DNA of 64,000 bases from Sphingomonas sp. dw_22 (lineage in GTDB: Bacteria; Pseudomonadota; Alphaproteobacteria; Sphingomonadales; Sphingomonadaceae). Positions within the stretch are counted from its first letter, which is position 1; each line of letters starts with the position of its first letter. This document shows positions 19,580 through 36,794 of this stretch, in pieces. Location: the NCBI RefSeq assembly GCF_018449795.1, contig NZ_JAAVVE010000018.1, positions 1-64,000 of the forward strand, written 5' to 3'. A program made the position numbers and the translations under genes. The notes under the pieces are model-generated. The model saw only the letters and a program-made list of their open reading frames with translations, was not told the origin of the DNA and did not search any database.

Positions 19580-20610
19580 CAGACGGTCTCGGTCACTTTC
19601 GCAAGGCTGGGCGGGCGATCGGGATCGAAGCCGCGTTTGAGCGATAGCGCATTTGCTGCGCGGTAAAAGGCCTGGATCTGCAACATCGGCTCGATCGCGG
19701 GATGCGCGGCCGGATGCGGGAGCTGGATCGCGCCGGCGACCGCGCCGCCGCTGACCAGCACTTCGCCGCCCCGCGCGAGGACATCGGCGACCAGCTCGTC
19801 CACGCCGTCGGCGGTCTCGTCGCCCTGGCGGAAGACCAGCAAGGGAAAGTCCGGACCGACCAGCGCCATCGGGCCGTGGCGGACCTCGGCGGCGCTGAAC
19901 GCCTCCGCGTGCAGCCCGCAGGTCTCCTTGAACTTGAGCGCTGCTTCCTGGGCGATGCCGAAGCCGACGCCGCGGCCGATCACATAGAGGCCGCGCGCCT
20001 TGTGCAGCCGCTCGACCAGCGGCGACCAATCGCATTCCCATGCCGTGCGCAGCAGGGCGGGGGAGGCAGTTACCGCTGCGAGCAGCTCGGCATCGTCGGC
20101 CCAGCGCGTTACGAGATGGAGCAGGCCGGCGAGGCTGGCGATATAGGATTTGGTCGCGGCGACGCTCAGCTCGGGGCCGGCGTGGAGCGGCAGCGTCACG
20201 TCCGATTCGGTGGCGAGCGGCGAATCCTCGACATTGACAAGTGCGAGCGTGCGGGCGCCGCCCTGCTTCGCGGCGCGCATGGCGGAAAGGATGTCGGGGC
20301 TCTTGCCCGATTGCGAGATGCCGATCGCGAGCATGCCGGAGAAATCGGTGGCGGTGCCGTAGATCGAGGAGACCGAAGGCGCGGCGGAGGTGGTCAGGAT
20401 GCCGAGGCGCGTCTCGATCAGATATTTGGCGAAGGTCGCGGCATGATCCGAACTGCCGCGCGCGCAGGTGAGCACGCCGCGCACATGCTGCGCGCGCAGA
20501 TCGGCGGCGAGCGCGGCTACAGCCTCGGCATTGGCCGCAAGCTGGCGCGCGACGGCGTTGGCGGCATCGGCCGCTTCCTGGAACATCCGGGTCGTTTGCG
20601 GATCGGCCAT
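19579..20610 (-). CDS. nagB-II: SIS-domain glucosamine-6-phosphate deaminase (NagB-II type)
   Basis: 343 residues from ATG 20610. Two SIS domains resemble the isomerase half of GlmS: CARGSSDHAATFAKYL and IGISQSGKSPD in the first, ending in the GlmS/AgaS-like tail FDPDRPPSLAKVTETV. The glutaminase domain of GlmS is absent, as expected for a deaminase. In nag loci that lack classical nagB this protein converts glucosamine-6-P to fructose-6-P and ammonia; no classical nagB is present here, which supports the assignment. It starts 4 bases after the GntR regulator stop and overlaps nagA by one base. Confidence 0.88.
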   Translation of the reverse strand: MADPQTTRMFQEAADAANAVARQLAANAEAVAALAADLRAQHVRGVLTCARGSSDHAATFAKYLIETRLGILTTSAAPSVSSIYGTATDFSGMLAIGISQSGKSPDILSAMRAAKQGGARTLALVNVEDSPLATESDVTLPLHAGPELSVAATKSYIASLAGLLHLVTRWADDAELLAAVTASPALLRTAWECDWSPLVERLHKARGLYVIGRGVGFGIAQEAALKFKETCGLHAEAFSAAEVRHGPMALVGPDFPLLVFRQGDETADGVDELVADVLARGGEVLVSGGAVAGAIQLPHPAAHPAIEPMLQIQAFYRAANALSLKRGFDPDRPPSLAKVTETV

Positions 20611-20614
20611 CGCT

Positions 20615-21358
20615 TCAGCCTCGCGTATCCAGTTCGGCGACGAAATCATAGGCGTCGCCGCGATACCAGCTCTGCGTCGCCTCGATCACGCGCCCATCGG
20701 AAAGGAATCCACGCCGCTCGATGTAAAGCCCCGGCGCGCCGGCTTCGATCCCGAGCAATTTGGCCTGCTCGGCGTTGAACAGCACCGCGCGCAGCCGCTG
20801 GAGCGCCCGCACGGGGCGGTTTCCCGCGGCCTCCAGCGCGGCATAGAGCGAGGAGCCGACCGTCTCGATATCTTCGAAGCCGAAGCCGGGGATCGTCGCA
20901 TGCTCGAGCGCCATCGCGACATCGTCGGCATAGCGGATGCGATTGAAGCGGAAGACGGCGGCGCCGGGGCTGAGGCCGAGCGTCAGCGCCTCGTCGGGCG
21001 TCACCGCGCCTTCGGTGCGGCTCAGCCATTCGCTGCGCACGATGCGCCCGCGCGCGGCCATATCCTCGGAGAAGGAGGAGAGCTTGGCGAACTGCTTCTC
21101 GACGCGGCTCGCGACGAAAGTGCCCGCGCCGTGGCGGCGGACCAGCAGTCCCTCGTCGACCAGAGCGTCGAGCGCCTTGCGCAGCGTGATCCGCGAGACG
21201 GAGAGGTCCGCGGCAAGGTCGCGCTCGGGCGGCAGCGCCTCATTGGGCTTGAGCACCTGATCGCGCAGCGCCTCGCGCAACGCATCCTCGATCCGCCGAT
21301 ACAGCGGACCGCCACCGGACCCATCCAGGGGTTTTATTCTCTCGGCCAGCAGCGGCAT
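20615..21358 (-). CDS. GntR/HutC-family regulator of the nag locus
   Basis: 247 residues. An N-terminal winged helix (PLYRRIEDALREALRD; LSVSRITLRKALDALVDEGLL; HGAGTFVA) is joined to a UTRA ligand domain (residues about 90-240, ending FVAELDTRG). It is first in the operon with the SIS deaminase and nagA, and divergent from the TBDR. ATACCA/TGGTAT repeats in the intervening 207 bases are its probable operators. A phosphorylated amino sugar such as GlcN-6-P or GlcNAc-6-P is the likely inducer by analogy with NagR/NagQ-type HutC regulators. Confidence 0.9.
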   Translation of the reverse strand: MPLLAERIKPLDGSGGGPLYRRIEDALREALRDQVLKPNEALPPERDLAADLSVSRITLRKALDALVDEGLLVRRHGAGTFVASRVEKQFAKLSSFSEDMAARGRIVRSEWLSRTEGAVTPDEALTLGLSPGAAVFRFNRIRYADDVAMALEHATIPGFGFEDIETVGSSLYAALEAAGNRPVRALQRLRAVLFNAEQAKLLGIEAGAPGLYIERRGFLSDGRVIEATQSWYRGDAYDFVAELDTRG

Positions 21359-21565: not shown

Positions 21566-24292
21566 ATGCGGATTCGGGCACTACTTATCGGCACCGCCAG
21601 CAGCGTGGCGCTGCTTGCCAGCGCAGCACATGCGCAAAGCCAGGACACTGACGCGGCACCGGCGGCGGAAACCCAGGACAATGGCGAAATCGTCGTCACC
21701 GGCTTCCGCGCATCGCTGGCCGCGGCGATCGAGACCAAGCGCAACGCCGATGCGATCGTCGATTCGGTTTCGGCCGAGGATGTCGGCAAATTCCCCAACA
21801 CCAACGTCGCCGAGGCGCTGACGCTGGTTCCGGGCGTCACCGTCGACCGACAGTTCGGCCAGGGCGAGAAGGTCTCGATCCTCGGCACCGATCCGGCGCT
21901 CAACCGCACGCTGCTGAACGGCCAGACGGTCGCCTCGGCCGACTGGTTCATCCTCGATTCCCCCGGCCGTACCTTCAACTATGCGCTGCTCGCGCCGCAG
22001 CTTGTCGGCCGGGTGGATGTGTACAAGTCGCCCGAGGCGCGGATCGACGAAGGCTCGATCGGCGGCACGGTGAACGTCAACACGCGCCATCCGCTCGACC
22101 TGAAGCCGTTCACCCTCGCGGGCTCGCTCGGCTATCTCTACAATGACCGCTCCGAAAAGGGCGACATCCAGGGATCGATCCTGGGGAGCTGGCATAACGA
22201 ATCCGGCACGCTGGGCCTGCTCGCGTCGTTCCAGCGCAGCAAGGATCGCCTGCGCCGCGACGGCCTGGAAAGCTACGGCACGATCGGCGCGGACTTCTGG
22301 AGCGGCGTGAACGACGGCGGCGCCGGCAATTCGAGCCTGTTGCCGTTCCGCGACGAGGACGGCAACATCACCGCGCCGGCCAATTGCGTGGACGCCTGCG
22401 CGGCCACGCTCGCCGCCAATCCGGATGCCAAGTTCCCCAACGCGTTCGGCACTTCCTATTTCGAGCAGGATCGCGAGCGCCTGACCTATTCGGCCGAGGC
22501 GCAGTGGAAGCCGGTGCCCGAGCTGACGGTGAGCGTCGACTGGCTGCGCATCGACGCGACCTATGACAATCTCAACCAGTCGCTGTTCGCCTTCCCGGGC
22601 AATGTCTGGAACAGCGCCCGGCAGCTCACCGACCTGACCGTCGAGGACGGCATCGTCAAGCAGGCGAGCTTCACCCACGCGCTCTCGGTGCTCGACGCGC
22701 AATATCGCATCGCCGAGATGCATTCGCAGACCTTCCACGGCAAGCTCGCCTGGGAGGGCGTCAACTGGAACCTGAATGTCGAGGGCGGCGTCTCGGATGC
22801 CGATGGCGGCACCAAGCACCAGGTGTTCCTCGAATTCCTCAACTGGTCCGACTATACGGTCGACATCAGCGGCGCGCCGAAGAGCCCGGGCACGATCAGC
22901 TATCCGACCAACGTGCTCGGCAATCCGGCGGCGTTTGCGACCGATCCGGGCTGGAGCGGCAACCTGGTCGACAAGCCGACCACCGACAAGGAGCGCTACG
23001 GCCAGGCCGATCTGACCTTCAAGTTCGACGGTTCGCTGAAGAGCATCCAGATCGGCTATAAATATCGCCGCCACGAGACCGGTCAGCGCTATTCGGGCGT
23101 GACCGTCGCGGGCGTCAATGCCCCCGCCTCGCTGTTCGATCCGAGCACGGTGAAGGACAATTACCTGACCGGCTTCGACGGCATCAACGACCAGATGGCC
23201 GGCCGCTTCAAGATCGACGGCGATTCCATGGTCGATTATGTCGAGAGCGGCCAGTGGCTGCCCGCCGGCACGACCTTCCCGGTGCCGTCGCAATTCTCGG
23301 CCGCCGAGTTCACTGCCGGCAACTGGGACGTGACCGAGGATATCCACGCGGTCTATGCGCAGGTCAATTTCCAGCAGGGTCCGCTGCGCGGCAATATCGG
23401 CGCGCGCTACGTCAACACGTCGAGCGACAGCGTTGGGTTCGTCTGCAAGCCGGGCGCGCTGTGCAACTCCGAGCCCGATTGGGTGTGGCAGAGCACGAAG
23501 AAGAAATACGACAACCTGCTGCCCAGCATCAACATCGCGATCGACCTGAAGAAGGACCTGATCTTCCGCGCCGCGGCCTCACAGGTGATCTCGCGGCCGA
23601 ACTATGCCGACATGACCAATTATTTCTGGCTGTCGGACCAGATCCTGACCGGCGGCGGCGGCAATCCGAACCTCGATCCCTATGAATCGACCAACTACAA
23701 TGCGTCGCTCGAATGGTATTTCGCGCCGCGGGCGATCCTGTCGGCCGAAGTATTCTACAAGGACATCAGCAACTATATCCTCCAGCAGACCGCGCCGGAG
23801 CAGTATTTCAACCAGTCGACCGGCGGGGTGACGACCTATGATATCAGCCGCCCGTACAATGCGGGCTCGGCCGAGGTGAAAGGCTTCGCGGTCGCCTATC
23901 AGCAGAACCTGCCGCTGGGCTTCGGCGTGCTGGCGAACTACACCTATGCCGACGGCCATGGGCAGGACGGCGCCGACCTGCCGTATAATTCCAAGCATCA
24001 GGTGAGCTTCAGCCCGTTCTTCGAGAACGGACCGTTCGCGCTGCGCGGCACCTATACCTGGCGGTCGAAATATTTCACCGGCATCGACCGCGCCGACCAG
24101 ATGTATGTCCGCGACACCGCCAATGTGGACGTCTCGGCGACGTACAACATCACCAAGGAGATCGGCCTTACGATCTCGGGCATGAACCTGACCGACAGTC
24201 AGTACTATGCCTATGCCAACACGCCGCAATTGCCGCGCGGCGTCTACAAGACCGGGCGCAAGCTGCTCGCGACCGTCAACGTCAACTTCTGA
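21566..24292 (+). CDS. TonB-dependent receptor of the chitin/GlcNAc locus
   Basis: 908 residues with a signal peptide (cleavage near AHAQS, residue 24) and a TonB box EIVVTGFR at residues 41-48. The plug domain follows (VSAEDVGKFPNTNVAEAL; VYKSPEARIDEGSIGGTVNV), then a beta-barrel ending in VNVNF. The start has AGGGGA upstream. Divergent from the GntR-deaminase-nagA operon and followed by GH20 and PTS genes, it most likely imports chitooligosaccharides or GlcNAc across the outer membrane. Substrate is inferred from context only. Confidence 0.92.
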   Translation: MRIRALLIGTASSVALLASAAHAQSQDTDAAPAAETQDNGEIVVTGFRASLAAAIETKRNADAIVDSVSAEDVGKFPNTNVAEALTLVPGVTVDRQFGQGEKVSILGTDPALNRTLLNGQTVASADWFILDSPGRTFNYALLAPQLVGRVDVYKSPEARIDEGSIGGTVNVNTRHPLDLKPFTLAGSLGYLYNDRSEKGDIQGSILGSWHNESGTLGLLASFQRSKDRLRRDGLESYGTIGADFWSGVNDGGAGNSSLLPFRDEDGNITAPANCVDACAATLAANPDAKFPNAFGTSYFEQDRERLTYSAEAQWKPVPELTVSVDWLRIDATYDNLNQSLFAFPGNVWNSARQLTDLTVEDGIVKQASFTHALSVLDAQYRIAEMHSQTFHGKLAWEGVNWNLNVEGGVSDADGGTKHQVFLEFLNWSDYTVDISGAPKSPGTISYPTNVLGNPAAFATDPGWSGNLVDKPTTDKERYGQADLTFKFDGSLKSIQIGYKYRRHETGQRYSGVTVAGVNAPASLFDPSTVKDNYLTGFDGINDQMAGRFKIDGDSMVDYVESGQWLPAGTTFPVPSQFSAAEFTAGNWDVTEDIHAVYAQVNFQQGPLRGNIGARYVNTSSDSVGFVCKPGALCNSEPDWVWQSTKKKYDNLLPSINIAIDLKKDLIFRAAASQVISRPNYADMTNYFWLSDQILTGGGGNPNLDPYESTNYNASLEWYFAPRAILSAEVFYKDISNYILQQTAPEQYFNQSTGGVTTYDISRPYNAGSAEVKGFAVAYQQNLPLGFGVLANYTYADGHGQDGADLPYNSKHQVSFSPFFENGPFALRGTYTWRSKYFTGIDRADQMYVRDTANVDVSATYNITKEIGLTISGMNLTDSQYYAYANTPQLPRGVYKTGRKLLATVNVNF

Positions 24293-24427: not shown

Positions 24428-26692
24428 GTGAAGCCCTATCGATATCTGCTCATCGCGCTGCTGGCGGCGCTGCCCTCGCCGCCCGCCGCGGCGCAATTGC
24501 CCCGGCTGCTGCCGGTGCCGGTCGAGCTGAAGGCGGCGGATGGGGCGTTCCGGATCGCTCCCGGCACGGCTATCGTGGCGGCGAGCGACGACAGCGGCGC
24601 GCGCAACGCGGCCGAGCGGCTGGCGGCGCTGGTGAAGGATTCGCGGGGGTTCGCGCCGGCGATCGTGGCGAGCGGCAAGGGGCTGGCGATCCGTTTCCGC
24701 CGGGGGCCGACCGGCGATGCGGAATCCTATCGGCTCGAGGTGACCGGCGCGGGCGCGACGATCACCGCGGGCGACGATGCCGGGCTGCTCTATGGTGCGG
24801 TCACCCTGTGGCAGGCGATGACGCAGGAAGCAGGACAGGGCGCGGTCACTGTTCCGGGCTTCACCGTGAGCGACACGCCGCGCTTCCACTGGCGCGGGCT
24901 GATGCTCGACAGCGCGCGGCATTTCCAGTCGCCCGATTATGTGCGGCACCTGATCGACTGGATGGCGGTCAATAAGCTCAACACGCTCCACTGGCATCTG
25001 GTGGACGATCAGGGCTGGCGGATCGAGATCCCCAAATATCCGAAGCTCACCGAGGTTTCCGCGTGGCGCGAACCCGCCACCGCGCCCAGCGCGCCGCGGC
25101 TGCCCAAGGTGGGGGGCTTCTACACCCAGGCCGAGATCCGCGAGATCGTCGCCTATGCGGCGAAACGCAGCGTGACGATCGTGCCCGAGATCGAGATGCC
25201 CGGCCATGCGCTGGCGGCGATCCGGGCCTATCCCTGGCTCGGCACCGGGACGCCGATCCCGTCGGGCACCGAGAGCGACTGGGGCGTCTTCCCCTGGCTC
25301 TACAATATCGACGATCGCACCTTCGGCTTCCTGGAGGAGGTGCTCGGCGAGGTGATGGCGCTGTTCCCGTCGCGCTATGTCCATGTCGGCGGCGACGAGG
25401 CGGTGAAGGACCAGTGGAAGGCCTCGCCTGCGATCCAGGCGCGGATGAAGGCGCTCGGCATCAAGGACGAGGCCGCGCTGCAGAGCTGGTTCGTCCACCG
25501 GATCGAGAAGTTCGTCAGCGGCAAGGGGCGGCGGCTGATCGGCTGGGACGAGATCCTCGAAGGCGGCATGCCCGAGGGTGCGACGATCACCTCGTGGCGC
25601 GGCATCGACGGCGCGATCGCGGCGGCCAAGGCGGGGCATGACGCGGTGCTGAGCCCGTCGCCGACGCTCTATATCGACAATCGCCAGGGCTTCGGGCCGT
25701 CCGAGCCGCCGGGGCGGGGGAATCTGATCGACCTGAAGACGGTCTATGATTTCGATCCCGCGCCGGATGCGATCCCGGCCGAGCAGCAGCATCATATCCT
25801 GGGGCTGCAGGCGAACCTGTGGACCGAGCATGTCCGCACCGAGGCGCGGGCGGCCTGGGCGACCTTCCCCCGCGCCAGCGCCGTCGCCGAGATCGGCTGG
25901 TCGCGCGAGGGCGCGCGCAGCTTCCCGGACTTCGTGACGCGAGTGATCCCGCAGATGGCGCGGATGCGCGCCCTGGGGTTGCGTTCGGCGTTCAGCGCCT
26001 GGGAAGTGCGGCCAAAGCTCGATTATAAGCCGGGCGAGGACGGGGTGACGGTGACGCTCGCCAACCAGGCCGGGCTGGAGATGCGCTACACGACCGACGG
26101 CAGCCTCGTGATCGCGACGTCGCCGCTCTATGCCGCGCCGTTCCGACTGAAGCTGCCGAGCGAACTCAAGGCGTCGACCTTTCTCGATGGCAAGCCGGCG
26201 CCCGGCGCAATCGCGCGGCGCGTCGACGCGCGCGCGGTTCGCCGGCGCAGCGACGAGGAACTCAAGACCTGCTCCAACAAGGTCGTGCTCGCGCTGGAGG
26301 ATGATTATCCGGCGACGGGCAAGCGCGCGGTGTTCCTGACCGACATCTTCGATCCCTGCTGGATCTATGAGGGCGCGCCGGTGGGCGGCGTGAAGCAGAT
26401 CGCGATCGAGGTCGGGCAGATCCCGTTCAACTTCCAGATCGGTGCCGATATCGACCATATCAAATTCCGCCCGCCAGCGACCCCTGCGGGTGAGTTCGAA
26501 GTCTATGCCGGTACCTGCAAGGGACCACGGATCGCGGTGCTGCCGCTGGCGCCGGCGGTGGGCAATCCGGGACTCACGCGGCTGGTCGCGCCGATCGAGC
26601 CGCGTTCGGGCAATGAGGATCTGTGCATCAGCTATACGGCCAAGGGCGTCGAACCGATGTGGGCGATCGAATCGGTCGAGCTGATCCCATGA
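24428..26692 (+). CDS. Exported beta-N-acetylhexosaminidase, GH20
   Basis: 754 residues from GTG 24428. A signal peptide ends near PAAAAQ (residue about 23). The GH20 N-terminal beta/alpha domain occupies about 30-150 and the catalytic barrel about 155-510, with WRGLMLDSARHF, NTLHWHLVDDQGWR, EIEMPGHA and the catalytic pair Asp323-Glu324 in HVGGDEAV. A chitobiase C-terminal domain follows (YTTDGS, about 555) and then a further beta-rich region to the end. It splits chitobiose and longer chitin fragments to GlcNAc by substrate-assisted catalysis. Its stop overlaps the next start (ATGA). Confidence 0.95.
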   Translation: MKPYRYLLIALLAALPSPPAAAQLPRLLPVPVELKAADGAFRIAPGTAIVAASDDSGARNAAERLAALVKDSRGFAPAIVASGKGLAIRFRRGPTGDAESYRLEVTGAGATITAGDDAGLLYGAVTLWQAMTQEAGQGAVTVPGFTVSDTPRFHWRGLMLDSARHFQSPDYVRHLIDWMAVNKLNTLHWHLVDDQGWRIEIPKYPKLTEVSAWREPATAPSAPRLPKVGGFYTQAEIREIVAYAAKRSVTIVPEIEMPGHALAAIRAYPWLGTGTPIPSGTESDWGVFPWLYNIDDRTFGFLEEVLGEVMALFPSRYVHVGGDEAVKDQWKASPAIQARMKALGIKDEAALQSWFVHRIEKFVSGKGRRLIGWDEILEGGMPEGATITSWRGIDGAIAAAKAGHDAVLSPSPTLYIDNRQGFGPSEPPGRGNLIDLKTVYDFDPAPDAIPAEQQHHILGLQANLWTEHVRTEARAAWATFPRASAVAEIGWSREGARSFPDFVTRVIPQMARMRALGLRSAFSAWEVRPKLDYKPGEDGVTVTLANQAGLEMRYTTDGSLVIATSPLYAAPFRLKLPSELKASTFLDGKPAPGAIARRVDARAVRRRSDEELKTCSNKVVLALEDDYPATGKRAVFLTDIFDPCWIYEGAPVGGVKQIAIEVGQIPFNFQIGADIDHIKFRPPATPAGEFEVYAGTCKGPRIAVLPLAPAVGNPGLTRLVAPIEPRSGNEDLCISYTAKGVEPMWAIESVELIP

Positions 26693-29145
26693 GCGCTGAC
26701 ACTGTGATTCTGGCCGCGCCCTTCGCGGGCTGGCTCGCGCCGCTGGAGGAAGTGCCCGACGCGGTCTTCGCCGAGCGGATGATGGGCGACGGCTTCGCGG
26801 TCGATCCGATCGAGGGCGTGCTGCGCGCACCGGCGGCGGGCGAAGTGCTTTCGGTGCCGGCAAGCGCGCATGCGGTGACGCTGCGGCTCGAGAACGGTGC
26901 GGAACTGCTGCTGCATATCGGGCTGGAGACCGTGGCGCTGGACGGGCGCGGCTTTGCGGCCAAGGTTGCGGCCGGGGATCGCGTGGCGTTGGGCGATGTG
27001 TTGGTCGAATTCGACCTCGACGCAGTGGGCGAGGCGGCCAAGGCGCTGATTACGCCAGTGGTGGTCGCCAGTGAGGGTTTCACGCTGCATCTGGAGCGGG
27101 TCGGCCGGCTGGTCGATGCGGGCGATCCGGTTGCGCGGCTTGAGCGTGGTAATGGGGGCGTGGCCTCGGCCCCTATTTCGGAGGAACGCCATGAGCGGCA
27201 GGTGCAGGTGTCCGCCGCGCACGGCATCCATGCGCGCCCGGCGGCACGGATCGCGGCGGCGCTGCGGCCGTTCCTGTCGGAAGTTGAGCTGGTGCAGGGT
27301 ACGCGGCGGGCCAATGCGCGCAGCACCGTGGCGCTGCTCGGGCTGGGCGTGGCACATGGTGACACAGTGCGGATCGCCGGCAGCGGGGCCGATGCCCGCG
27401 CGGCGGTGGATGCGGTTGCCGATCTGATCCTGTCGGGGCTGGGTGAGGACGCGGCGACGCCTGCGCCGAAGCCGGCAGCGCGGGCAGGACAGCCGGTCAC
27501 GGCGTCGCCGGGATTGGCGATCGGCACGGTGCTCCAGCTCCGTGCGGCCGACCAGGATGTGCCCGAGAACGGCGCAGGTCCGGCGGTCGAGCGGGCGGCG
27601 CTCGGCAAGGCGCTGGGCGAAGTCGCCGCAAGCCTGGAAGGCAGGAGCGGCAGCGCCGCCGAGATCGCCGAGGCGCACCGCGCGCTGCTGGAGGATCCCG
27701 ATCTGGTCCGCGCCGCCGAACGCCTGATCGCCGAAGGACGCAGCGCCGCCTTCGCCTGGCGCGCTGCGAGCCGCGAGGCCGCCGCTGCGATCCGCGCGAC
27801 GGGCGATGCGCTGCTGATGGAGCGGATCGCGGACCTGACCGATCTGGAGCGCCAGGTGATCGCGGTGCTGCTGGACGGCGAGGGGCCGGGCGTTCCTGCC
27901 TTGCCCAAGGGTACGATCCTGATCGCCGAAGACCTGCTGCCGTCTCAGTTCCTGGCGCTTGATACGGGCAATCTCGCCGGCATCATCACCGCGGCGGGCG
28001 GGCCGACCTCGCATGTCGCGATCCTCGCGGCTTCGGCAGGCATTCCCATGCTCGTCGCGGCGGGAGAGGCGGCGCTGGAGATTGCCGACGGCACGCCGCT
28101 GATCCTCGACGCGGACGCGGCAACGATCGCGGTGAATCCGGACGCGGAGGCGCTGGCGGACGCGAGCGTGCGGCTGGCGGAAACCCGCGAACGGCGTGCC
28201 AACGACCTCGCGGCGGCGCACGCGCCAGCGCACATGGCGGACGGTACGCGGATCGAGGTCTTCGCCAATCTGGGTTCGGTCGCCGATGCGGCGGCGGCGG
28301 TGAATGCGGGTGCGGAGGGTTGCGGTCTGCTGCGCACCGAATTCCTGTTCCTCGAACGCGATACGGCTCCAAGCGAGGAGGAGCAGCGCGAGACCTATTC
28401 GCGGATCGCCGCCACACTGGGCGATCGCCCGCTGATCGTGCGCACGCTCGATATCGGCGGGGACAAGCCGGTGCCCTATCTGCCGCTGCCGGCGGAGGAG
28501 AACCCGGCGCTCGGCCTGCGCGGCATCCGGCTGGGCCTGGCGCGGCCGGACCTGCTGCGGCTCCAGCTCCGCGCGATCCTGCGCGGCGTGCCGGCGGACC
28601 AGTGCCGGATCATGCTGCCGATGATCGCCGATCTGGGGGATTACTGTCCGGTGCGGGCGATGCTCGATGCAGTGAAGGCGGAACTGGGCATCGCCGATGC
28701 GATTCAGTTAGGCGTGATGATCGAGACTCCCGCCGCTGCGATGCTGGCCGGGCAGATCGCGCGCGAGGCGGATTTTCTGTCGATCGGCACCAACGACCTG
28801 ACGCAATATACGCTCGCCGCCGATCGCGGGAATGCTTCGGTTTCGGCGCGGATCGATGCGCTGCACCCGGCTGTGCTGCGGCTGATCCGCGAGGTGGGGC
28901 GCGGCGCGCGCGATGCCGGGCGTTGGGCGGGCGTGTGCGGCAGTCTTGCGTCCGATCCGCTCGCCGCGCCGATCCTGATCGGGCTCGGCATCACCGAACT
29001 CTCGGCGACGCCGGCGGCGGTGCCGGGTCTCAAATCCGCCGTGCGTTCGCTCGACATGGCCGCATGCCAGGCATTGGCCGAGCGCGCCTGCGACGCGGTC
29101 TCGGCGGCGGACGTACGCGAACTGGCCCGGGAGGCGATCCGATGA
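26689..29145 (+). CDS. nagF: PTS EIIA-HPr-EI fusion for GlcNAc (NagF type)
   Basis: 818 residues. Three phosphotransfer modules in order: a Crr-like EIIA (residues 1-155; active His76 in LLLHIGLETV), HPr (about 167-255; active His181 in GIHARPAA), and enzyme I (about 265-818; active His442 in GGPTSHVAI, PEP-binding RTEFLFLERD, and active-site Cys in AGVCGSLASD). All active residues are present. It takes phosphate from PEP to the IIB domain of NagE downstream. Start and stop overlap the neighbouring genes by ATGA, so hexosaminidase, this protein and NagE are translationally coupled. Confidence 0.93.
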   Translation: MSADTVILAAPFAGWLAPLEEVPDAVFAERMMGDGFAVDPIEGVLRAPAAGEVLSVPASAHAVTLRLENGAELLLHIGLETVALDGRGFAAKVAAGDRVALGDVLVEFDLDAVGEAAKALITPVVVASEGFTLHLERVGRLVDAGDPVARLERGNGGVASAPISEERHERQVQVSAAHGIHARPAARIAAALRPFLSEVELVQGTRRANARSTVALLGLGVAHGDTVRIAGSGADARAAVDAVADLILSGLGEDAATPAPKPAARAGQPVTASPGLAIGTVLQLRAADQDVPENGAGPAVERAALGKALGEVAASLEGRSGSAAEIAEAHRALLEDPDLVRAAERLIAEGRSAAFAWRAASREAAAAIRATGDALLMERIADLTDLERQVIAVLLDGEGPGVPALPKGTILIAEDLLPSQFLALDTGNLAGIITAAGGPTSHVAILAASAGIPMLVAAGEAALEIADGTPLILDADAATIAVNPDAEALADASVRLAETRERRANDLAAAHAPAHMADGTRIEVFANLGSVADAAAAVNAGAEGCGLLRTEFLFLERDTAPSEEEQRETYSRIAATLGDRPLIVRTLDIGGDKPVPYLPLPAEENPALGLRGIRLGLARPDLLRLQLRAILRGVPADQCRIMLPMIADLGDYCPVRAMLDAVKAELGIADAIQLGVMIETPAAAMLAGQIAREADFLSIGTNDLTQYTLAADRGNASVSARIDALHPAVLRLIREVGRGARDAGRWAGVCGSLASDPLAAPILIGLGITELSATPAAVPGLKSAVRSLDMAACQALAERACDAVSAADVRELAREAIR

Positions 29146-30818
29146 AGCTGCACCCCTCGCGCGTGCTTGCCCGGCTCCAGCCGCTTGGTCGCGCGCTGAT
29201 GCTGCCGATCGCGGTGCTGCCGATCGCGGCGCTGCTGCTGCGGCTCGGCCAGGCGGACATGCTCGGCATTCCCTTCATCGCGGCATCGGGCGATGCGATC
29301 TTCTCGAACCTGGGCCTGCTCTTCGCCGCGGGCGTCGCGGTGGGGCTGGCGCGCGAGAATCACGGCGCGGCGTCGCTGGCTGGCGTGGTTGCCTTTCTGG
29401 TCGCGACTGAGGGCGCCAAGGTGCTCCTGCAACTGCCGCCGGGCATGGCGAACGCGCTGCCGGTCGAGCAGGCGGCGTGGCGCGCGAAGGAGATATCGCA
29501 TCTGAGCGTGCCGATCGGCATCCTGGCGGGCGTCGTCTCCGGGCTGCTCTACAATCGCTTCGCCAATATCAAGCTGCCGGATTATCTCGCTTTCTTCGCC
29601 GGGCGGCGTTTCGTGCCGATAGCGGCGGGCCTTGCCGGGCTGATCGGCGCGGCGATCTTCGGCTATGGCGCGCATTGGTTCGAGGCCGGGATCGATACGG
29701 TGAGCCAATGGGTGGTTCGGGCGGGGCCGATCGGGCTGTTCGTCTATGGCCTGCTCAACCGGCTGCTGCTGATTACCGGCCTGCATCACATCATCAACAA
29801 TGTCGCCTGGTTCCTGCTCGGCGACTTCCACGGCGCGACCGGCGACATCAAGCGCTTCTTCGCGGGCGATCCGACCGCGGGCAGCTTCATGGCTGGTTTC
29901 TTCCCGGTGATGATGTTCGGCCTGCCCGCCGCCTGCCTGGCGATGTACCGCAGCGCCTTGCCGGCTCGGCGCAAGGCAGTTGGGGGCCTGCTGCTCAGCC
30001 TGGCGCTGACCTCGCTGCTGACCGGGGTGACCGAGCCGATCGAGTTCACCTTCATCTTCCTCGCGCCCATGCTCTACGTCGTCCATGCGGTGCTGACCGG
30101 CGTGGCGATGGTGGTGATGGACCTGCTGGGCGTGAAGCTGGGCTTCGGCTTCTCGGCGGGGCTGATTGACTATGTGCTGAACTATGGGCTGGCGACGCGG
30201 CCGCTGCTGCTGATTCCGGTCGGGATCGTCTATTTCGGCATCTATTACGCGGTGTTCAGCTGGTGCATCCGCCGTTTCGATTTGAAGACCCCGGGCCGCG
30301 AGACCGACGAGCCGATCGCGGCAGCGGCCGGTGTCGGTGCTGGCGGGCGGGGTGCCGGGATCGTCCAGGCGCTGGGCGGGCGCGAGAATGTCCGCAGCGT
30401 CGATGCCTGCACCACCCGGCTGCGCCTGGTGCTGACCGATTCCGGCCGGGTCGATGAGGCGGGGCTGCGGGGCCTCGGCGCGCGTGGCGTGCTGAAGCTC
30501 ACCGACGGCCGCGTCCAGGTGGTGATGGGACCGATCGCCGATCGGGTGGCGGGTGAGGTTCGTGAAGCGATGGCGTCCGGCCCGACTGCAAGCCCGGCGG
30601 CGAAGATCGATGCCGCCGCGGTTGCCCATGCGCTGGGCGAGGGCAATCTCCGCTCCGCCGAGGCGCGTGCGACGCGCGTTCTCGCCAGGGTCGGCGATCC
30701 CGGGCTGGTCGACGAGGCGGCGCTTCGCCGCGCGGGTATCCGGGCGGTGGCGATCATCGGCGGCACGGTGCACCTGATCGCCGGCCCCGACGCGCCCGAT
30801 CTGGCGGCGCGGCTATAG
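29142..30818 (+). CDS. nagE: PTS N-acetylglucosamine permease EIICB with a second, cysteine-less IIB domain
   Basis: 558 residues. Residues 1-375 are the IIC membrane channel of the glucose/GlcNAc family (MLPIAVLPIAALLLRLG; GLHHIINNVAWF; VTEPIEFTFIFLAPMLY). IIB domain 1 (about 400-480) has the phosphorylated Cys423 in DACTTRLRL. A second IIB-like domain (about 488-558) aligns with the first (VRSVDACTTRL against LRSAEARATRV) but has Arg509 in place of the cysteine. It imports and phosphorylates GlcNAc at the inner membrane, receiving phosphate from the preceding fusion protein. The extra domain is unlikely to be catalytic. Confidence 0.92.
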   Translation: MKLHPSRVLARLQPLGRALMLPIAVLPIAALLLRLGQADMLGIPFIAASGDAIFSNLGLLFAAGVAVGLARENHGAASLAGVVAFLVATEGAKVLLQLPPGMANALPVEQAAWRAKEISHLSVPIGILAGVVSGLLYNRFANIKLPDYLAFFAGRRFVPIAAGLAGLIGAAIFGYGAHWFEAGIDTVSQWVVRAGPIGLFVYGLLNRLLLITGLHHIINNVAWFLLGDFHGATGDIKRFFAGDPTAGSFMAGFFPVMMFGLPAACLAMYRSALPARRKAVGGLLLSLALTSLLTGVTEPIEFTFIFLAPMLYVVHAVLTGVAMVVMDLLGVKLGFGFSAGLIDYVLNYGLATRPLLLIPVGIVYFGIYYAVFSWCIRRFDLKTPGRETDEPIAAAAGVGAGGRGAGIVQALGGRENVRSVDACTTRLRLVLTDSGRVDEAGLRGLGARGVLKLTDGRVQVVMGPIADRVAGEVREAMASGPTASPAAKIDAAAVAHALGEGNLRSAEARATRVLARVGDPGLVDEAALRRAGIRAVAIIGGTVHLIAGPDAPDLAARL

Positions 30819-30902: not shown

Positions 30903-31751
30903 ATGGCGGCTATCGGGCAGGCGGACGACTATGTCGCCGACTATCGGCGCAACGGCTATGCGATCATTCGCGGGCTGTTCTCGCCCTCCGAGATCGAGGC
31001 GATCGGCGCCGCGATCGACCAGGTCGAGGCCGAGGGCATCGCGCATGGCCGCAGCTTCCGTCATGGCAACCTCTTCTACAATGTCGCCCCGGCCGAGGGC
31101 GCGCAGCCGCCGCTGGTGCGGATGGCGCAGTGGATGTCCTATCATCAGCCGGTGCTGAACGGCGTGCGGACCGATCCGCGCATCGCCCGGATCCTCGCGC
31201 CGCTGATCGGCGGCGATCTCAAGCAGATCATCAACCAGCTCCACTGGAAGGCGCCGGGATCGAAGGGTGATTTCGCCTGGCATCAGGATTCGCGCTTCCG
31301 CCGTCCGGAATGGGCTTATCGGAACCTCGGCACCTCCTATGTGCAGACCGGCATCGCCATCGATCCGCACAATCCCGAGAGTGGCGGCATGAAGTTCATT
31401 CCCGGTAGCCATGTCCACGGCGTGATCGGCCTGGATACCTCTACCGAGGTACTGGGCACCGAGATGCAGGATGCGGTGCTGCAAGCGGCGGGCCTTTCGG
31501 CGGACGACACGATCGATCTGGTGATGGAGCCCGGCGATTTCGCGCTGTGGAGCCCGTATCTGGTCCATGGCTCGGGCCTCAACCGTTCGACCCACCAGCG
31601 CCGTTTCTACATCAACGGCTATGTCCGCGCCGAGGATTGCGACCGCGGCGAATGGGCGTTCCGGGGCGGCGAGCCGGTACCGTTCGGCTCCGAGCCGGCG
31701 CTTGTCCACTACGAGGCGCTGCACGAGCGCGGCGAGCCGCATTACGTCTGA
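30903..31751 (+). CDS. Phytanoyl-CoA dioxygenase (PhyH) family protein
   Basis: 282 residues, Fe(II)/2-oxoglutarate-dependent dioxygenase fold. The iron ligands are His127 and Asp129 in WHQDSRF and His222 in LVHGSGLN, with a 2-oxoglutarate-binding Arg shortly after (RRFYINGY). Bacterial PhyH proteins hydroxylate very varied substrates, so the target cannot be named. It lies 84 bases after nagE and 215 bases before the next TBDR, with AGGAG about 10 bases before the ATG, and looks like a single-gene unit or the tail of the nag transcript. Confidence 0.88.
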   Translation: MAAIGQADDYVADYRRNGYAIIRGLFSPSEIEAIGAAIDQVEAEGIAHGRSFRHGNLFYNVAPAEGAQPPLVRMAQWMSYHQPVLNGVRTDPRIARILAPLIGGDLKQIINQLHWKAPGSKGDFAWHQDSRFRRPEWAYRNLGTSYVQTGIAIDPHNPESGGMKFIPGSHVHGVIGLDTSTEVLGTEMQDAVLQAAGLSADDTIDLVMEPGDFALWSPYLVHGSGLNRSTHQRRFYINGYVRAEDCDRGEWAFRGGEPVPFGSEPALVHYEALHERGEPHYV

Positions 31752-31966: not shown

Positions 31967-34918
31967 GTGAAGCATTCCAAGATGATGCGGGCGTATCTCG
32001 CTGCGGCGACGATGCTGGCCGGCGGCGCGGTGATGCTGCCGGTTGCGGCTTCGGCCCAGGTGACCACCGGTACGCTGCGCGGCCATGTAACCGGCGCGGA
32101 CGGTGCGGCGGCGGGCGGCGCGGCGGTGACGGCGCGCAACACGAGCACCAACCAGAGCTACCGCGTGGCCGCCGATGCGAACGGCAACTACACGCTGACC
32201 GGCCTGCGTCCCGCCACCTATGAGGTGACTGCGACCGCGGGCGAGCAGACCGCGAGCAAGCTGGTTCAGATCGTCGTCGGCCAGGCTGCGAACCTCGACC
32301 TTGCCATCCTCTCCGCGGAAGCCGCGGCTGCGGAGCCGGCGACCGTCGGCAGCGACGAGATCGTGGTTGTCGGATCGCGGCTGGCGGAGACCCGCACCAG
32401 TGAGGTCGCGACCAATGTGAGCCAGGACCAGATCCGCATCCTGCCGCAGACCGATCGCAACTTCCTGTCCTTCGCGGCGCTGGCCCCGGGCGTGCGCTAC
32501 AATGACGGCGAGACCGGCAAGGGCATCCAAGCGGGCGCATCGACCGCGAGCCAGGTCAATGTCTTCATCGACGGCGTCAGCCTGAAGAACAAGCTGCGCG
32601 AAGGCGGCATCGCCGGTCAGCAGAACAGCCGCGGCAATCCGTTCGGCCAACTCGCCGTCCAAGAGTTCCGCGTGCTGACGCAGAACTACAAGGCGGAATA
32701 TGAGCAGGCCGGATCGGCGATCATCACCGCCGTCACCAAATCGGGCACCAACGAATTCCATGGTGAGGCGTTCGGCCAATATACCGACAAGGGGCTGACC
32801 GAGAAGCCGTATCTCGACAAGCGCAACAATCGCCCCGAGCCTGAGTTCGAGCGCAAGCAATACGGCATCTCGCTCGGCGGCCCGATCGTGAAGGACAAGC
32901 TGTTCTTCTTCGCCGCCTATGAGGGTAACGACCAGAACCGCGCGCTCAACGTCGACAGCACCGGATCGGCGGACGCGATCACTGAGTTCGAGCAGGTCTC
33001 CGGCCGTCGCCTCTCGGATTTCGAGGGTTCTTTCGTCAGCCCGTTCCGCGGCGACTTTTATTTCGGCAAGCTGACGCTCACGCCTGACAGCCACCAGACC
33101 TTCGAATTGTCGTTCAGTCGTCGTCAGGAAACCGACATCCAGAATTTCGGTGGCAACGTCTCCTATGAGAATGCGGAGAACAAGATCAACAAGGTCGACA
33201 CCTATCTGTTCAAATGGACCTATAACGGTGACAACTTCGTAAATGAATTCAATGCGAACTATCTAGATTATACGTTCAACCCGGTTTCGGTTAATCCGAA
33301 TCTACCGACATTCGACTATGACGGCGTAATCATATTCGGCGGCAAGGATTCCACGCGCCGCGAGATTCAGAAGGGCCACACTCTCCGTGACGACTTCACC
33401 TATACGGGGTTTGACGGTCACGCGATCAAGTTCGGCGCCCGGGTAGAGGTCACCGATATCGAATTCGCCAATCAGGCGAATATCCAGCCGCGCTACACCT
33501 TCCGGCGCGAGCCGCAGAATAATCTCAATTTCTCCTTCCCTGCAGAGGCGCGGCTGGGACTGGGCAACGGACTGATCCTGGCCTCCGACACCCAGGTCGG
33601 GCTGTATGTGCAGGACGATTGGGACATCACGAGCCGGCTGCAGCTCAATATCGGCGTGCGCTGGGATTATGAGACGAACGGCTTCAACAACGACTATCGC
33701 ACGCCCGCTGCCGCGGCGGCTGCGCTGCGCGCCCTGCCGACGACGTCCTATTTCAATCCTGAAAACTACATCACCGACGGCAACGATCGCAGCCCGTTCG
33801 CTGGCGCGATCGCGCCGCGCCTCGGCTTTTCGTGGGATATCAAGGGCGATCGCTCGACGGTGATCTTCGGCGGGCTGGGCCGTTATTATGACCGCAACAA
33901 CTTCAACAACACCGTCGACGAGCTTTCGCGCACGATCAATCCGATCGGCGTGTTCCGCTTCTCAGCGGACGGCCAGCCGCGCGGTGGCCTGCCGACTGTT
34001 CAGTGGAACCCATCCTATCTGACGCGCGAAGGCCTGCTGGCCCTGCGCGACAGCTCGCAGAGCGCCGGCCTGCCCGAACTGTTCGCCGTCAAGAACGACG
34101 CCAAGCCGCCGGTCAACGATCAGGTCAGCATTGGCGTCCGCCAGCGTATCGGCGTCTTCCAGGCGTCGCTTACCGGCTCGTACCAGCGGGGCCGCAACGG
34201 CTATACCAATCTGTTCGCGACGCGGAATGACAACGGGCTGGGCGGCTGCTGCAACACCGCCCCGGTCGTTCCGTTCGGCTATGCCAATGTGCTGATTGGC
34301 TATGACGGGCTCGATACGCGCTACAAGGCGATCTATTTCACGCTCGACAAGAACTACACCGAGGCGTCGGGCTGGGGCTTCAATCTTGCCTATACCTATT
34401 CGAAGGGCGAGCAGAACGGCGGCGACCTGTTCAGCCTCGATGCGCTGACGCCCGATAATTATGGCTGGCGTCCCCGAGCGGGCGATGAGCGGCACCGCCT
34501 TGTCCTGTCGGGCATCGTCGATCTGCCGCTGGGCTTCCAGTTCTCGACGCTCAGCACCTTCGGCTCCGGCCAGGCGTTTCAGGTGGTCGATTCCACCAAC
34601 GGCGCCGATTCCGGCTTCAACCGCTTCACTGCCGCTTATCCGGAGAAGAACTGCATCAAGGGCGTCTTCGCCTTTTGCGAAGTCAATGTGTCGCTCTCCA
34701 AGAAGCTCGCGATATTCGGCGGCGACCAGGTGGAGGCCGCGGTCGATATGCTCAATGTCTTCAACAACAAGAATTTCGAAGGCTTCGACACAGGGTTCAA
34801 CAACACGATCAATCCTGAGACGGGCCAGGTGACGGACCCGCTCGAGCCGGCGCGGATCGGCAGCAACGTGCTCACCCTGCCGCGGCGCATCCAGTTCCGC
34901 CTCGGCTATCGCTTCTGA
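31967..34918 (+). CDS. Oar-like TonB-dependent receptor with N-terminal carboxypeptidase-regulatory domain
   Basis: 983 residues. The signal peptide is cleaved near ASAQ (residue 30). Residues about 35-112 form a carboxypeptidase-regulatory-like beta-sandwich (GTLRGHVTGADG; ANGNYTLTGLRPATYEV), then a TonB box DEIVVVGSR at 130-138, a plug, and a barrel ending in LGYRF. This architecture is that of Oar-type receptors. The promoter carries a LacI operator shared with the GH144 and LacI/GH3 genes, so it likely imports the oligosaccharide those enzymes make. The stretch 33236-33350 has markedly AT-richer codons than the rest. Confidence 0.9.
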   Translation: MKHSKMMRAYLAAATMLAGGAVMLPVAASAQVTTGTLRGHVTGADGAAAGGAAVTARNTSTNQSYRVAADANGNYTLTGLRPATYEVTATAGEQTASKLVQIVVGQAANLDLAILSAEAAAAEPATVGSDEIVVVGSRLAETRTSEVATNVSQDQIRILPQTDRNFLSFAALAPGVRYNDGETGKGIQAGASTASQVNVFIDGVSLKNKLREGGIAGQQNSRGNPFGQLAVQEFRVLTQNYKAEYEQAGSAIITAVTKSGTNEFHGEAFGQYTDKGLTEKPYLDKRNNRPEPEFERKQYGISLGGPIVKDKLFFFAAYEGNDQNRALNVDSTGSADAITEFEQVSGRRLSDFEGSFVSPFRGDFYFGKLTLTPDSHQTFELSFSRRQETDIQNFGGNVSYENAENKINKVDTYLFKWTYNGDNFVNEFNANYLDYTFNPVSVNPNLPTFDYDGVIIFGGKDSTRREIQKGHTLRDDFTYTGFDGHAIKFGARVEVTDIEFANQANIQPRYTFRREPQNNLNFSFPAEARLGLGNGLILASDTQVGLYVQDDWDITSRLQLNIGVRWDYETNGFNNDYRTPAAAAAALRALPTTSYFNPENYITDGNDRSPFAGAIAPRLGFSWDIKGDRSTVIFGGLGRYYDRNNFNNTVDELSRTINPIGVFRFSADGQPRGGLPTVQWNPSYLTREGLLALRDSSQSAGLPELFAVKNDAKPPVNDQVSIGVRQRIGVFQASLTGSYQRGRNGYTNLFATRNDNGLGGCCNTAPVVPFGYANVLIGYDGLDTRYKAIYFTLDKNYTEASGWGFNLAYTYSKGEQNGGDLFSLDALTPDNYGWRPRAGDERHRLVLSGIVDLPLGFQFSTLSTFGSGQAFQVVDSTNGADSGFNRFTAAYPEKNCIKGVFAFCEVNVSLSKKLAIFGGDQVEAAVDMLNVFNNKNFEGFDTGFNNTINPETGQVTDPLEPARIGSNVLTLPRRIQFRLGYRF

Positions 34919-34961: not shown

Positions 34962-36794
34962 ATGAAGCGCGCGTCCCTCCTTCTGCTCAGCCTGCTTGCG
35001 GGCACCGCCGTCCAGGCCCAGGCGCCGAAGCGGACGTACATCAATCCGCTCGACATCGATTACCGCTACAATTTCGAGCAGATGAACGAGGGCGTCTCGT
35101 ACCGGACCGGGGCTGATCCCGCCGTGGTCCAGTTCAAGGGCGCCTATTACCTGTTCCAGACGCTGGCCGACGGATACTGGCGCTCGACCGACCTGATCGA
35201 CTGGACCTTCATCACGCCGAGCCGCTGGCCGTTCCAGTCGATCGTCGCGCCGGCGGTGTGGTCGGACGGCGAGCGGATCCTGATCCAGCCCTCGATGACC
35301 CGGCCGGAATCGATCCTCTCCAGCACTGCGCCGGAGACGGGCAGGCTCGACTTCTTCGTGCGGCGGATGCCGGAACTGCCGGGCGCCGTCCCGGGCGGGT
35401 TCGAGGATAGGATCAAGCCGGGACAGGTGCCGCCGGGGCCGTGGGATCCCGCGCTGTTCAAGGACGATGACGGGAAATGGTATCTCTACTGGAACTCGTC
35501 GAACGTCTTTCCGCTCTATGGCATCGAGATCGCGTTCAAGGATGGGCGGCTGATCTACAAGGGGCAGGCCCAGGCGATGCTGGCGCTGCATCCGGAGCGG
35601 CACGGCTGGGAGCGGTTCGGCCAGGATCATTCGGGCAGCCTGCCCGACGGCACGCCGATCAAGCCCTTCATGGAGGGCGCCTGGATGACCAAGGTGGGTG
35701 GGCGCTACTATCTCCAGTACGGCGCGCCGGGGACCGAATATAACGCTTATGCCAACGGCACTTACGTCTCGGACAAGCCGCTGGGGCCGTTCGAGTACGC
35801 GCCATACAATCCGGTCGCCTACAAGCCCGGCGGGTTCGTCCAGGGGGCGGGGCACGGATCGACCTTCCAGGACGTACACGGCAATTGGTGGAACACCGGC
35901 ACGCCGTGGATCGGCTATAACTGGACGTTCGAGCGGCGCATCGGCATGTGGCCCGCGCATTTCGCAGCCGATGGGCAGATGTCGGTCTCGACCCGGTTCG
36001 GCGACTTTCCCCATTATGTGCCGACCTCCAAGATCGAGAATCCGGACAGCCTGTTCACCGGCTGGATGCTGCTTTCCTACAAGAAGGCGGTGACGGCTTC
36101 CTCGACGCTCGGAGAGTTTGCCGCGGACCGGGTGACCGACGAGAATCCGCGGACTTTCTGGGTGGCGGGCGCCAACCGGCCGGGCGAGACGCTGACGGTC
36201 GATCTGGGCGGGGCCAGGACGCTGCGGGCGGTGCAGGTCGATTTCGCCGACTACAAGTCCGGACGGTTCGCCGATGCGGACGACATCTACACCGAGTTCG
36301 CGCTGCAATCCTCGCTCGACGGCACGCACTGGGCGCCGCTGGCCAGGACCGAGGCGCCGCGCCGCGACCGGCCCAACGCCTATTTCGAGCTGCCGGCGCC
36401 GGTGAGGGCGCGCTACGTCCGCTATGTCCACGGCCATGTCGGCGCAGCCAATCTGGCGATCGGCGACATCCGCGTGTTCGGCTCGGCGGCCGGCAAGGCG
36501 CCGGCGATGCCGGGGGGCGTGACGGCCCGGCGCGACGCGGACCAGCGCAATGCGCGTATCGCCTGGAGGCCGGTGAAGGGCGCGGTCGGCTATAATGTGC
36601 TGTGGGGCATCCGGCCCGATCGGCTGACGCTCACCTATCAGCGCTGGGCCGATCAGGGGACGGCGCTGGACCTGCGCGCGCTCGACGTGGGGCAGGGCTA
36701 TTGGGTCGCGGTCGAGGCGTTCGATGAAAGCGGCGTGTCGCGGCGTTCGAAGCCGGTGCGGATCGACTGGAACTTGCCTTCCGCCAGCCGATAG
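34962..36794 (+). CDS. Exported GH43-like glycosidase with discoidin (F5/8 C) and fibronectin-III modules
   Basis: 610 residues, signal peptide to about residue 22 (AVQAQA). Five-bladed propeller of GH43 at about 25-365: the three expected acids are visible as Asp52 in TGADPAVV, Asp162 in GPWDPALF and Glu238 in FMEGAWM. Residues about 378-515 look like an F5/8-type C carbohydrate-binding module (SSTLGEFAADRVTDENPRTFWV; TLTVDLGGARTLRAVQVDF), and about 525-605 like fibronectin III. It follows the LacI-regulated TBDR and probably trims side chains (GH43 enzymes act on arabinose, xylose or galactose units). Linkage not determined. Confidence 0.82.
   Translation: MKRASLLLLSLLAGTAVQAQAPKRTYINPLDIDYRYNFEQMNEGVSYRTGADPAVVQFKGAYYLFQTLADGYWRSTDLIDWTFITPSRWPFQSIVAPAVWSDGERILIQPSMTRPESILSSTAPETGRLDFFVRRMPELPGAVPGGFEDRIKPGQVPPGPWDPALFKDDDGKWYLYWNSSNVFPLYGIEIAFKDGRLIYKGQAQAMLALHPERHGWERFGQDHSGSLPDGTPIKPFMEGAWMTKVGGRYYLQYGAPGTEYNAYANGTYVSDKPLGPFEYAPYNPVAYKPGGFVQGAGHGSTFQDVHGNWWNTGTPWIGYNWTFERRIGMWPAHFAADGQMSVSTRFGDFPHYVPTSKIENPDSLFTGWMLLSYKKAVTASSTLGEFAADRVTDENPRTFWVAGANRPGETLTVDLGGARTLRAVQVDFADYKSGRFADADDIYTEFALQSSLDGTHWAPLARTEAPRRDRPNAYFELPAPVRARYVRYVHGHVGAANLAIGDIRVFGSAAGKAPAMPGGVTARRDADQRNARIAWRPVKGAVGYNVLWGIRPDRLTLTYQRWADQGTALDLRALDVGQGYWVAVEAFDESGVSRRSKPVRIDWNLPSASR

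Follow-up and report, generated by a model that had tools for sequence, protein, structure and literature searches.

The N-acetylglucosamine cluster and the layout of NagE

The window, i.e., the whole 64,000-nucleotide stretch of Sphingomonas DNA that was analyzed, carries on its forward strand the nagE gene (29142..30818), which encodes a 558-residue protein that falls in the family of GlcNAc-specific PTS permeases (TIGR01998, 607.9 bits against a cut-off of 553.2). It is the only NagE copy in the whole genome. Pfam recognizes only PTS_EIIC and PTS_EIIB in the protein, and its best-scoring NCBIfam models are those of the glucose family. The family assignment, together with the genes around it, suggests that the sugar carried is GlcNAc. 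The domains follow each other in the order EIIC–IIB1–linker–IIB2, all on the same strand: the EIIC domain spans residues 17-320 (29190..30101; PF02378, E 1.7e-61), the catalytic IIB1 spans residues 404-475 (30351..30566; PF00367, E 7.6e-15 at residues 407-438) and includes the phosphoacceptor Cys423 (codon 30408..30410), a variable linker covers residues 476-487 (30567..30602), and IIB2 makes up the remainder of the protein, residues 488-558 (30603..30815). Residues 8-475 match the E. coli glucose permease IICBGlc (PtsG) in IIC-IIB order, and the AlphaFold model of the whole NagE has a mean pLDDT of 88.7 and a pTM of 0.73, with confidence dropping below a pLDDT of 50 at linker residues 482-486. 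An internal start at Met477 was considered as a source of free IIB2 and rejected, as only 16/170 sequences have a Met at that column.

Directly upstream of nagE, and overlapping its start by 4 bases, lies a gene for a NagF-like EIIA-HPr-EI fusion (26689..29145, forward strand; PF00358, PF00381, PF05524, PF00391 and PF02896), which is the presumed phosphoryl donor of the permease and contains the single PF00358 match of the whole genome. The same cluster includes genes for a GH20 beta-N-acetylhexosaminidase (24428..26692, forward; PF00728, E 4e-115), a TonB-dependent outer-membrane receptor (21566..24292, forward; PF00593 and PF07715), a GntR/UTRA regulator (20615..21358, reverse; PF07702 and PF00392) and a SIS-domain protein (19579..20649, reverse; PF01380) that is a probable GlcN-6-P deaminase, presumably of the NagB-II type. 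Downstream of nagE the window continues with a PhyH-family dioxygenase (30903..31751), an outer-membrane barrel with a CarboxypepD_reg domain (31967..34918) and a GH43 enzyme with an F5/8 type C domain (34962..36794).

A second IIB domain without the phosphocysteine

The C-terminal tail of the window's NagE has no Pfam match, PF00367 failing to detect it, and when searched alone against NCBIfam it gives weak matches to two models at their IIB end, TIGR01998 (E 3e-4) and glcB (E 4e-4). At an E value of 0.01, the PTS_EIIB model finds 52 of 65 tails and TIGR01998 finds 60. Profile comparison shows the relationship clearly: the Sphingomonas IIB2 profile (133 rows) aligns with that of IIB1 with a probability of 99.2 and an E value of 7e-20 in hhalign, the result is kept when only the 132 cysteine-less tails are compared with IIB1 (E 2.3e-19), and a IIC segment used as a control gives no match. 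Within the window's own protein IIB1 and IIB2 are 40% identical, and a profile of 65 tails searched against the PDB finds E. coli IIBGlc (1o2f_B, E 2e-15). At the level of predicted structure, the tail as modeled by AlphaFold (pLDDT 94.5) shows helices and strands in the same order as IIB1 and superposes on Mlc-bound E. coli IIBGlc (3bp8_C) with a Z of 12.6 and an rmsd of 1.1 Å over 69 residues. E. coli IIBGlc ranks first in both Foldseek and VIA-align, the IIA-bound form (Z 12.0) tying with the Mlc-bound one, and the weaker matches include arginine repressors with Z up to 6.4, within the range that the tool assigns to common arrangements.

A preliminary description of this DNA had proposed that NagE carries a second IIB lacking the phosphorylated cysteine, and the homology that underlies this proposal extends far beyond chance, as judged by hhalign, the PDB profile match and the AlphaFold superposition; the aligned segments quoted there, as well as Cys423 and Arg509, are as it gave them. 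By profile homology and predicted fold, IIB2 is thus a genuine IIB-fold domain without a phosphoacceptor cysteine. The place of the cysteine is taken in the window by Arg509 (codon 30666..30668), which leaves the IIB2 of this organism unable to relay phosphate through a cysteine.

The same description had taken Arg509 as a candidate conserved feature, to be checked by aligning NagE homologs, and here only half of the expectation held: the extra domain is conserved, but the Arg at the place of the cysteine is not. In the main set used for residue counts (228 non-redundant sequences), the phosphocysteine is present in IIB1 in 228/228 and in IIB2 in 23/228, which leaves 205 tails without it. In these 205 the position is occupied by His (73), Arg (38), Ala (32), Leu (27) and others, so Arg is one of many replacements and was rejected as a conserved feature. 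Within Sphingomonas His is the commonest residue (67/133), and Leu, Ala, Val and Ile also occur at position 509 of relatives with the same domain.

The conserved residue lies three positions further on. Arg512 (codon 30675..30677), the counterpart of IIB1 Arg426 at cysteine+3, is Arg in 205/205 cysteine-less and in 23/23 cysteine-bearing tails of the main set, is encoded by all six Arg codons across 172 genes, and is the sole invariant tail column in two further alignments, A2 and A3, which contain besides the window 63 and 64 of 80 named loci, respectively (65 rows in A3; in A2 each relative is one residue short at the C-terminal end). His544 (codon 30771..30773), at the place of IIB1 Gln459, is His in 187 and Gln in 18 of the cysteine-less tails, the IIB1 counterpart being Gln in 228/228. 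The arginine at cysteine+5 of IIB2 is present in 137/205 cysteine-less tails. Beyond the main family, seven distant NagEs (L057-L063; 36-41% identical to the window's), which belong to two other families of the class (f73 and f21), keep the domain with Gly or Lys at the place of Arg512 and with no aligned cysteine, which argues that Arg512 is not required everywhere for IIB2 to be retained. Four of these seven share an SPF-type C-terminal tail. In one further tail (L071), Cys and Arg are both present.

Distribution, descent and selection

NagE was found in 134/201 genomes of the genus (the window's genome counted), in 21/199 genomes of the family sample (a count that includes two genomes with weak matches only, the window's genome and one more of the genus), in 15/385 genomes of the class sample (with the window's genome and a single weak match included) and in 24/96 genomes of one further alphaproteobacterial family (f5). 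The 200 different NagE frames extracted from them start where the alignment to the window starts rather than at a chosen start codon. Restricting them to a length of 530-600 residues and at least 50% identity left 172; in every one of these (172/172) Cys423 is present and the tail contains Arg512. Among the 28 frames that fell outside these limits are the seven distant NagEs and L071, two frames of the f5 family dropped for length alone (L082 and L083), and tail-less frames of one family. IIB2 is absent from eight frames of a small-genome family (L055, L056, L066, L070 and L104-L107; 466-494 residues). Among the relatives that have the domain, the C-terminal end of NagE differs in length.

In the Sphingomonas sample, 133/135 NagE frames are intact and include IIB2, with no clean deletion among them. 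The two others (L017 and L137) carry frameshifts that are probably assembly errors, their genomes being assembled into 1 and 5 contigs at 88 and 80% completeness. In one of these two (L137, genome G161), as in Sphingomonas sp. H160509 (L286), the frame shifts within IIB2 and leaves IIB1 intact, which could reflect an assembly error or a natural loss of IIB2. Among the best 80 of 583 named relatives, the second IIB was found in 80/80, frameshifted in L286, which was left out of the named set thereafter (79 remaining). The genera represented among these 80 include Sphingomonas, Sphingopyxis, Novosphingobium, Sphingobium, Stakelama, Caulobacter, Brevundimonas, Nitrospirillum, Azospirillum, Pseudovibrio, Povalibacter and Steroidobacter, as well as an Acidobacteria-labelled MAG and others. 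In Sphingomonas sp. NFR04 (L267), a short in-frame duplication seems, by eye, to double the first segment of IIB2.

The cysteine of IIB2 is kept in some NagEs, e.g., those of Caulobacter, and is mostly missing in Sphingomonas, Nitrospirillum, Povalibacter and others. In a tree of the IIB domains of 80 proteins, all IIB2 lie on one side of a single branch, apart from IIB1, with the exception of the two from Pseudovibrio; the support of this branch is low (0.097). The Pseudovibrio IIB2 are 68-72% identical to their own IIB1 and so represent younger or converted copies. A NagE tree of 80 rows, built by a quick method, requires a minimum of 4 changes of cysteine state and of 31 changes of residue at the cysteine place. 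The tree itself gives no direction to these changes; since IIB domains work through the cysteine, they are best read as losses, which would make the cysteine-less state secondary. IIB2 probably originated in an old tandem duplication of IIB1 within NagE, after which several lineages would have lost the phosphocysteine while keeping the IIB fold and Arg512 beside the old active site.

Selection on the domain was measured in 40 independent close pairs; the set of all pairs under Ks 1 was put aside, being dominated by distant pairs. Pooled omega is 0.065 for IIC, 0.079 for IIB1, 0.255 (0.217-0.299) for IIB2 and 0.419 for the linker (0.42 over columns 476-489). IIB2 is therefore under purifying selection, with an omega roughly threefold that of IIB1. 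If the comparison is widened to more distant pairs, omega is 0.446 for cysteine-less IIB2 (92 pairs) vs 0.477 for cysteine-bearing IIB2 (6 pairs), with IIC and IIB1 also rising, to 0.22-0.26; constraint in the cysteine-less tails is no weaker than in the cysteine-bearing ones. Among eight segments compared across relatives, IIB2 differs the most (mean difference 0.63). That the domain is under purifying selection and that its cysteine-less form is not looser suggest that selection maintains IIB2, if loosely, in a role that does not involve the chemistry of a phosphocysteine. The tail had been described as a retained domain, and the sequence-level sign against this would have been its absence from, or random sequence in, close relatives. 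In these it is present as a conserved domain, and the intact genus frames, the presence beyond the genus, the predicted IIB fold and the selection measured on it all speak for retention.

Possible functions of the cysteine-less IIB

We tentatively favor the reading that IIB2, as a IIB′ with no catalytic role, binds another protein, the most probable partner being the EIIA of the adjacent EIIA-HPr-EI fusion. On this proposal, IIB2 would be the part of the permease to which a protein binds from the cytoplasm: it would dock the EIIA encoded upstream and hold the donor beside IIB1, while IIB1 alone would take the phosphate on Cys423 and hand it to GlcNAc. IIB2 might act as a decoy for EIIA, as the preliminary description suggested, the docking proposal being the related version that we prefer. 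The results lend no direct support to the other role suggested there, that of a sensor of phosphorylation state.

The linkage of the two genes is consistent with such a partnership. In 69 of the 71 named loci that have at least 2.6 kb of upstream sequence, EIIA and EI are encoded in one ORF upstream of nagE, as determined by ORF-level blastp, with no EI matched in the other two; for EIIA and EI, this count supersedes one made by tblastn, in which EIIA, HPr and EI were matched together in only 19/80, chiefly because an HPr match was missing. At the places that motifs set for IIAGlc Asp38/Asp94, the donor EIIA has Asp in 72/73 (one gap) and Asp or Glu in 73/73. In the 1O2F structure this acidic pair of EIIA reportedly faces the cysteine+3 and cysteine+5 arginines of IIBGlc. 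It counts against docking, however, that these two arginines of E. coli IIBGlc are less important for its phosphorylation by IIA than for passing the phosphate on to glucose. In another alphaproteobacterial family, NagEs without the tail adjoin EIIA-HPr-EI fusions as well (L299 and L301; split in L300). Coupling to a fused donor is therefore possible without IIB2, and the provision of EIIA in trans is weakened as the sole reason for the domain. Further points against docking are the Gly or Lys found in place of Arg512 in the seven distant NagEs and the divergence of IIB2, the largest among the eight segments. Distance correlation across 65 genomes gives a partial value of 0.20 for IIB2-EIIA and 0.17 for IIB2 with the first half of IIC, but the known pair IIB1-EIIA, which served as the control, scores -0.03, so these values do not point to a partner. 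The same face could also serve another partner, such as IIC, a repressor or a sugar phosphate.

The known system closest to this proposal is the fructose permease FruA, in which IIB′ is N-terminal to IIB, whereas the IIB2 of NagE is C-terminal to IIB1; moreover, FruA belongs to the fructose family and the IIB2 of NagE to the glucose family. FruB, the partner of FruA, is a single polypeptide that includes IIA and HPr. According to two papers, FruA has duplicated IIB domains that are both needed for full activity in E. coli (PMC2405797), and its IIB′ "functions in protein-protein interactions" (PMC6872149), both papers citing Charbit 1996. The likeness lies in the presence, within one permease, of an additional IIB that stays outside the phosphoryl relay. 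That a pseudo-IIB docking domain evolved independently in FruA and NagE, both with a fused EIIA/HPr donor, is somewhat unlikely; if true, a dead IIB would be a recurring way to hold a multi-domain donor on the permease, and Arg512 would be the contact preserved in most members of this NagE family. E. coli IICBGlc shares with NagE the IIC-IIB order and, judging from the predicted model, the fold of IIB2 (Z 12.6), but has one IIB, with its cysteine, and no IIB2. The E. coli-type NagE (IICBA; NCBIfam PRK10255) has the same sugar and the same IIC-IIB1 (model positions 3-484), but in it IIB is followed by a IIA belonging to the same protein (model positions 499-621). In the window this place is taken by IIB2, a correspondence in line with docking, and the IIA is located on the separate EIIA-HPr-EI protein.

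The first of the rival readings places the partner of IIB2 inside the permease: the domain might sit on the cytosolic face of IIC or on IIB1, or bind an anion such as GlcNAc-6-P via Arg512 and His544, and so tune the rate of transport. Arg512 and His/Gln544, whose polar side chains are among the best conserved in IIB2, match the invariant Arg426 and Gln459 of IIB1, and IIB2 may therefore have preserved some of the former active-site surface. IIB1 uses that face towards both EIIA and IIC. The seven distant homologs that lack Arg512 count against such a site, and we regard this reading as rather unlikely.

It is likewise improbable that IIB2 is a fading relic, kept only because a C-terminus must fold and not aggregate. 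The many replacements at the cysteine place, an omega threefold that of IIB1 and a C-terminal end of variable length are what a relic would be expected to leave, but the upper bound of the IIB2 omega remains at 0.299, cysteine-less tails are as constrained as cysteine-bearing ones, one Arg (512) is found in 228/228 sequences, and the genus shows 133/135 intact frames with no clean deletion seen among them.

A third alternative, which we consider quite unlikely, is that IIB2 captures a regulator as E. coli IIBGlc does with Mlc, sequestering a repressor at the membrane independently of phosphorylation. Its best structural match is indeed the IIBGlc of the Mlc complex, tied with other IIBGlc entries, and the genome encodes two ROK proteins (L311 and L312) with an N-terminal segment that by eye resembles a DNA-binding one. 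However, the ROK genes lie on other contigs, the regulator of the nag cluster is of the GntR/UTRA type, and a site blind to phosphorylation would be expected to bind constantly and give no signal. Finally, it is most improbable that IIB2 is still a phosphocarrier, via Cys where present, as in the Caulobacter-type tails that retain Cys and Arg, or via another residue such as the His509 common in Sphingomonas: the window has Arg at this position, for which reason His509 was rejected as its replacement phosphoacceptor, and relatives with the same domain have Leu, Ala, Val or Ile, so such a role can be neither general nor true here.

Two NagE genes of Caulobacter, CCNA_00572 and CCNA_00458, are named in the literature (PMC13046382). 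Five Caulobacter NagEs (L222, L227 and L236-L238), compared apart from those two genes, have the same tandem architecture as the window's protein but keep the cysteine of IIB2. GlcNAc permeases offer a natural series from cysteine-bearing (Caulobacter) to dead IIB2, and what a dead IIB is for could be addressed by the deletion of about 70 residues. In a search of titles and the beginnings of abstracts, covering mostly open literature and few subscription journals, no paper was visibly devoted to a duplicated or degenerate IIB in NagE. As far as can be told, FruA is the known parallel, and the cysteine-less, glucose-family, C-terminal IIB2 of NagE appears to be new; in Sphingomonas, Nitrospirillum, Povalibacter and other bacteria it gives the GlcNAc permease a second IIB that mostly lacks the cysteine.

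Tandem IIB domains were also observed outside a permease. One contig (C5) of genome G501 carries two adjacent ORFs in opposite orientation (L073 and L075), each of about 180 residues and consisting of two tandem IIBs, all four with the cysteine; these are free-standing double-IIB proteins, and the NagE-like protein of the same genome (L064) has its own IIA. In another genome of the class (G489, 1.4 Mb), nine matches to glucose-family permeases were found, some of them pieces of one gene, which is many for a genome of this size.
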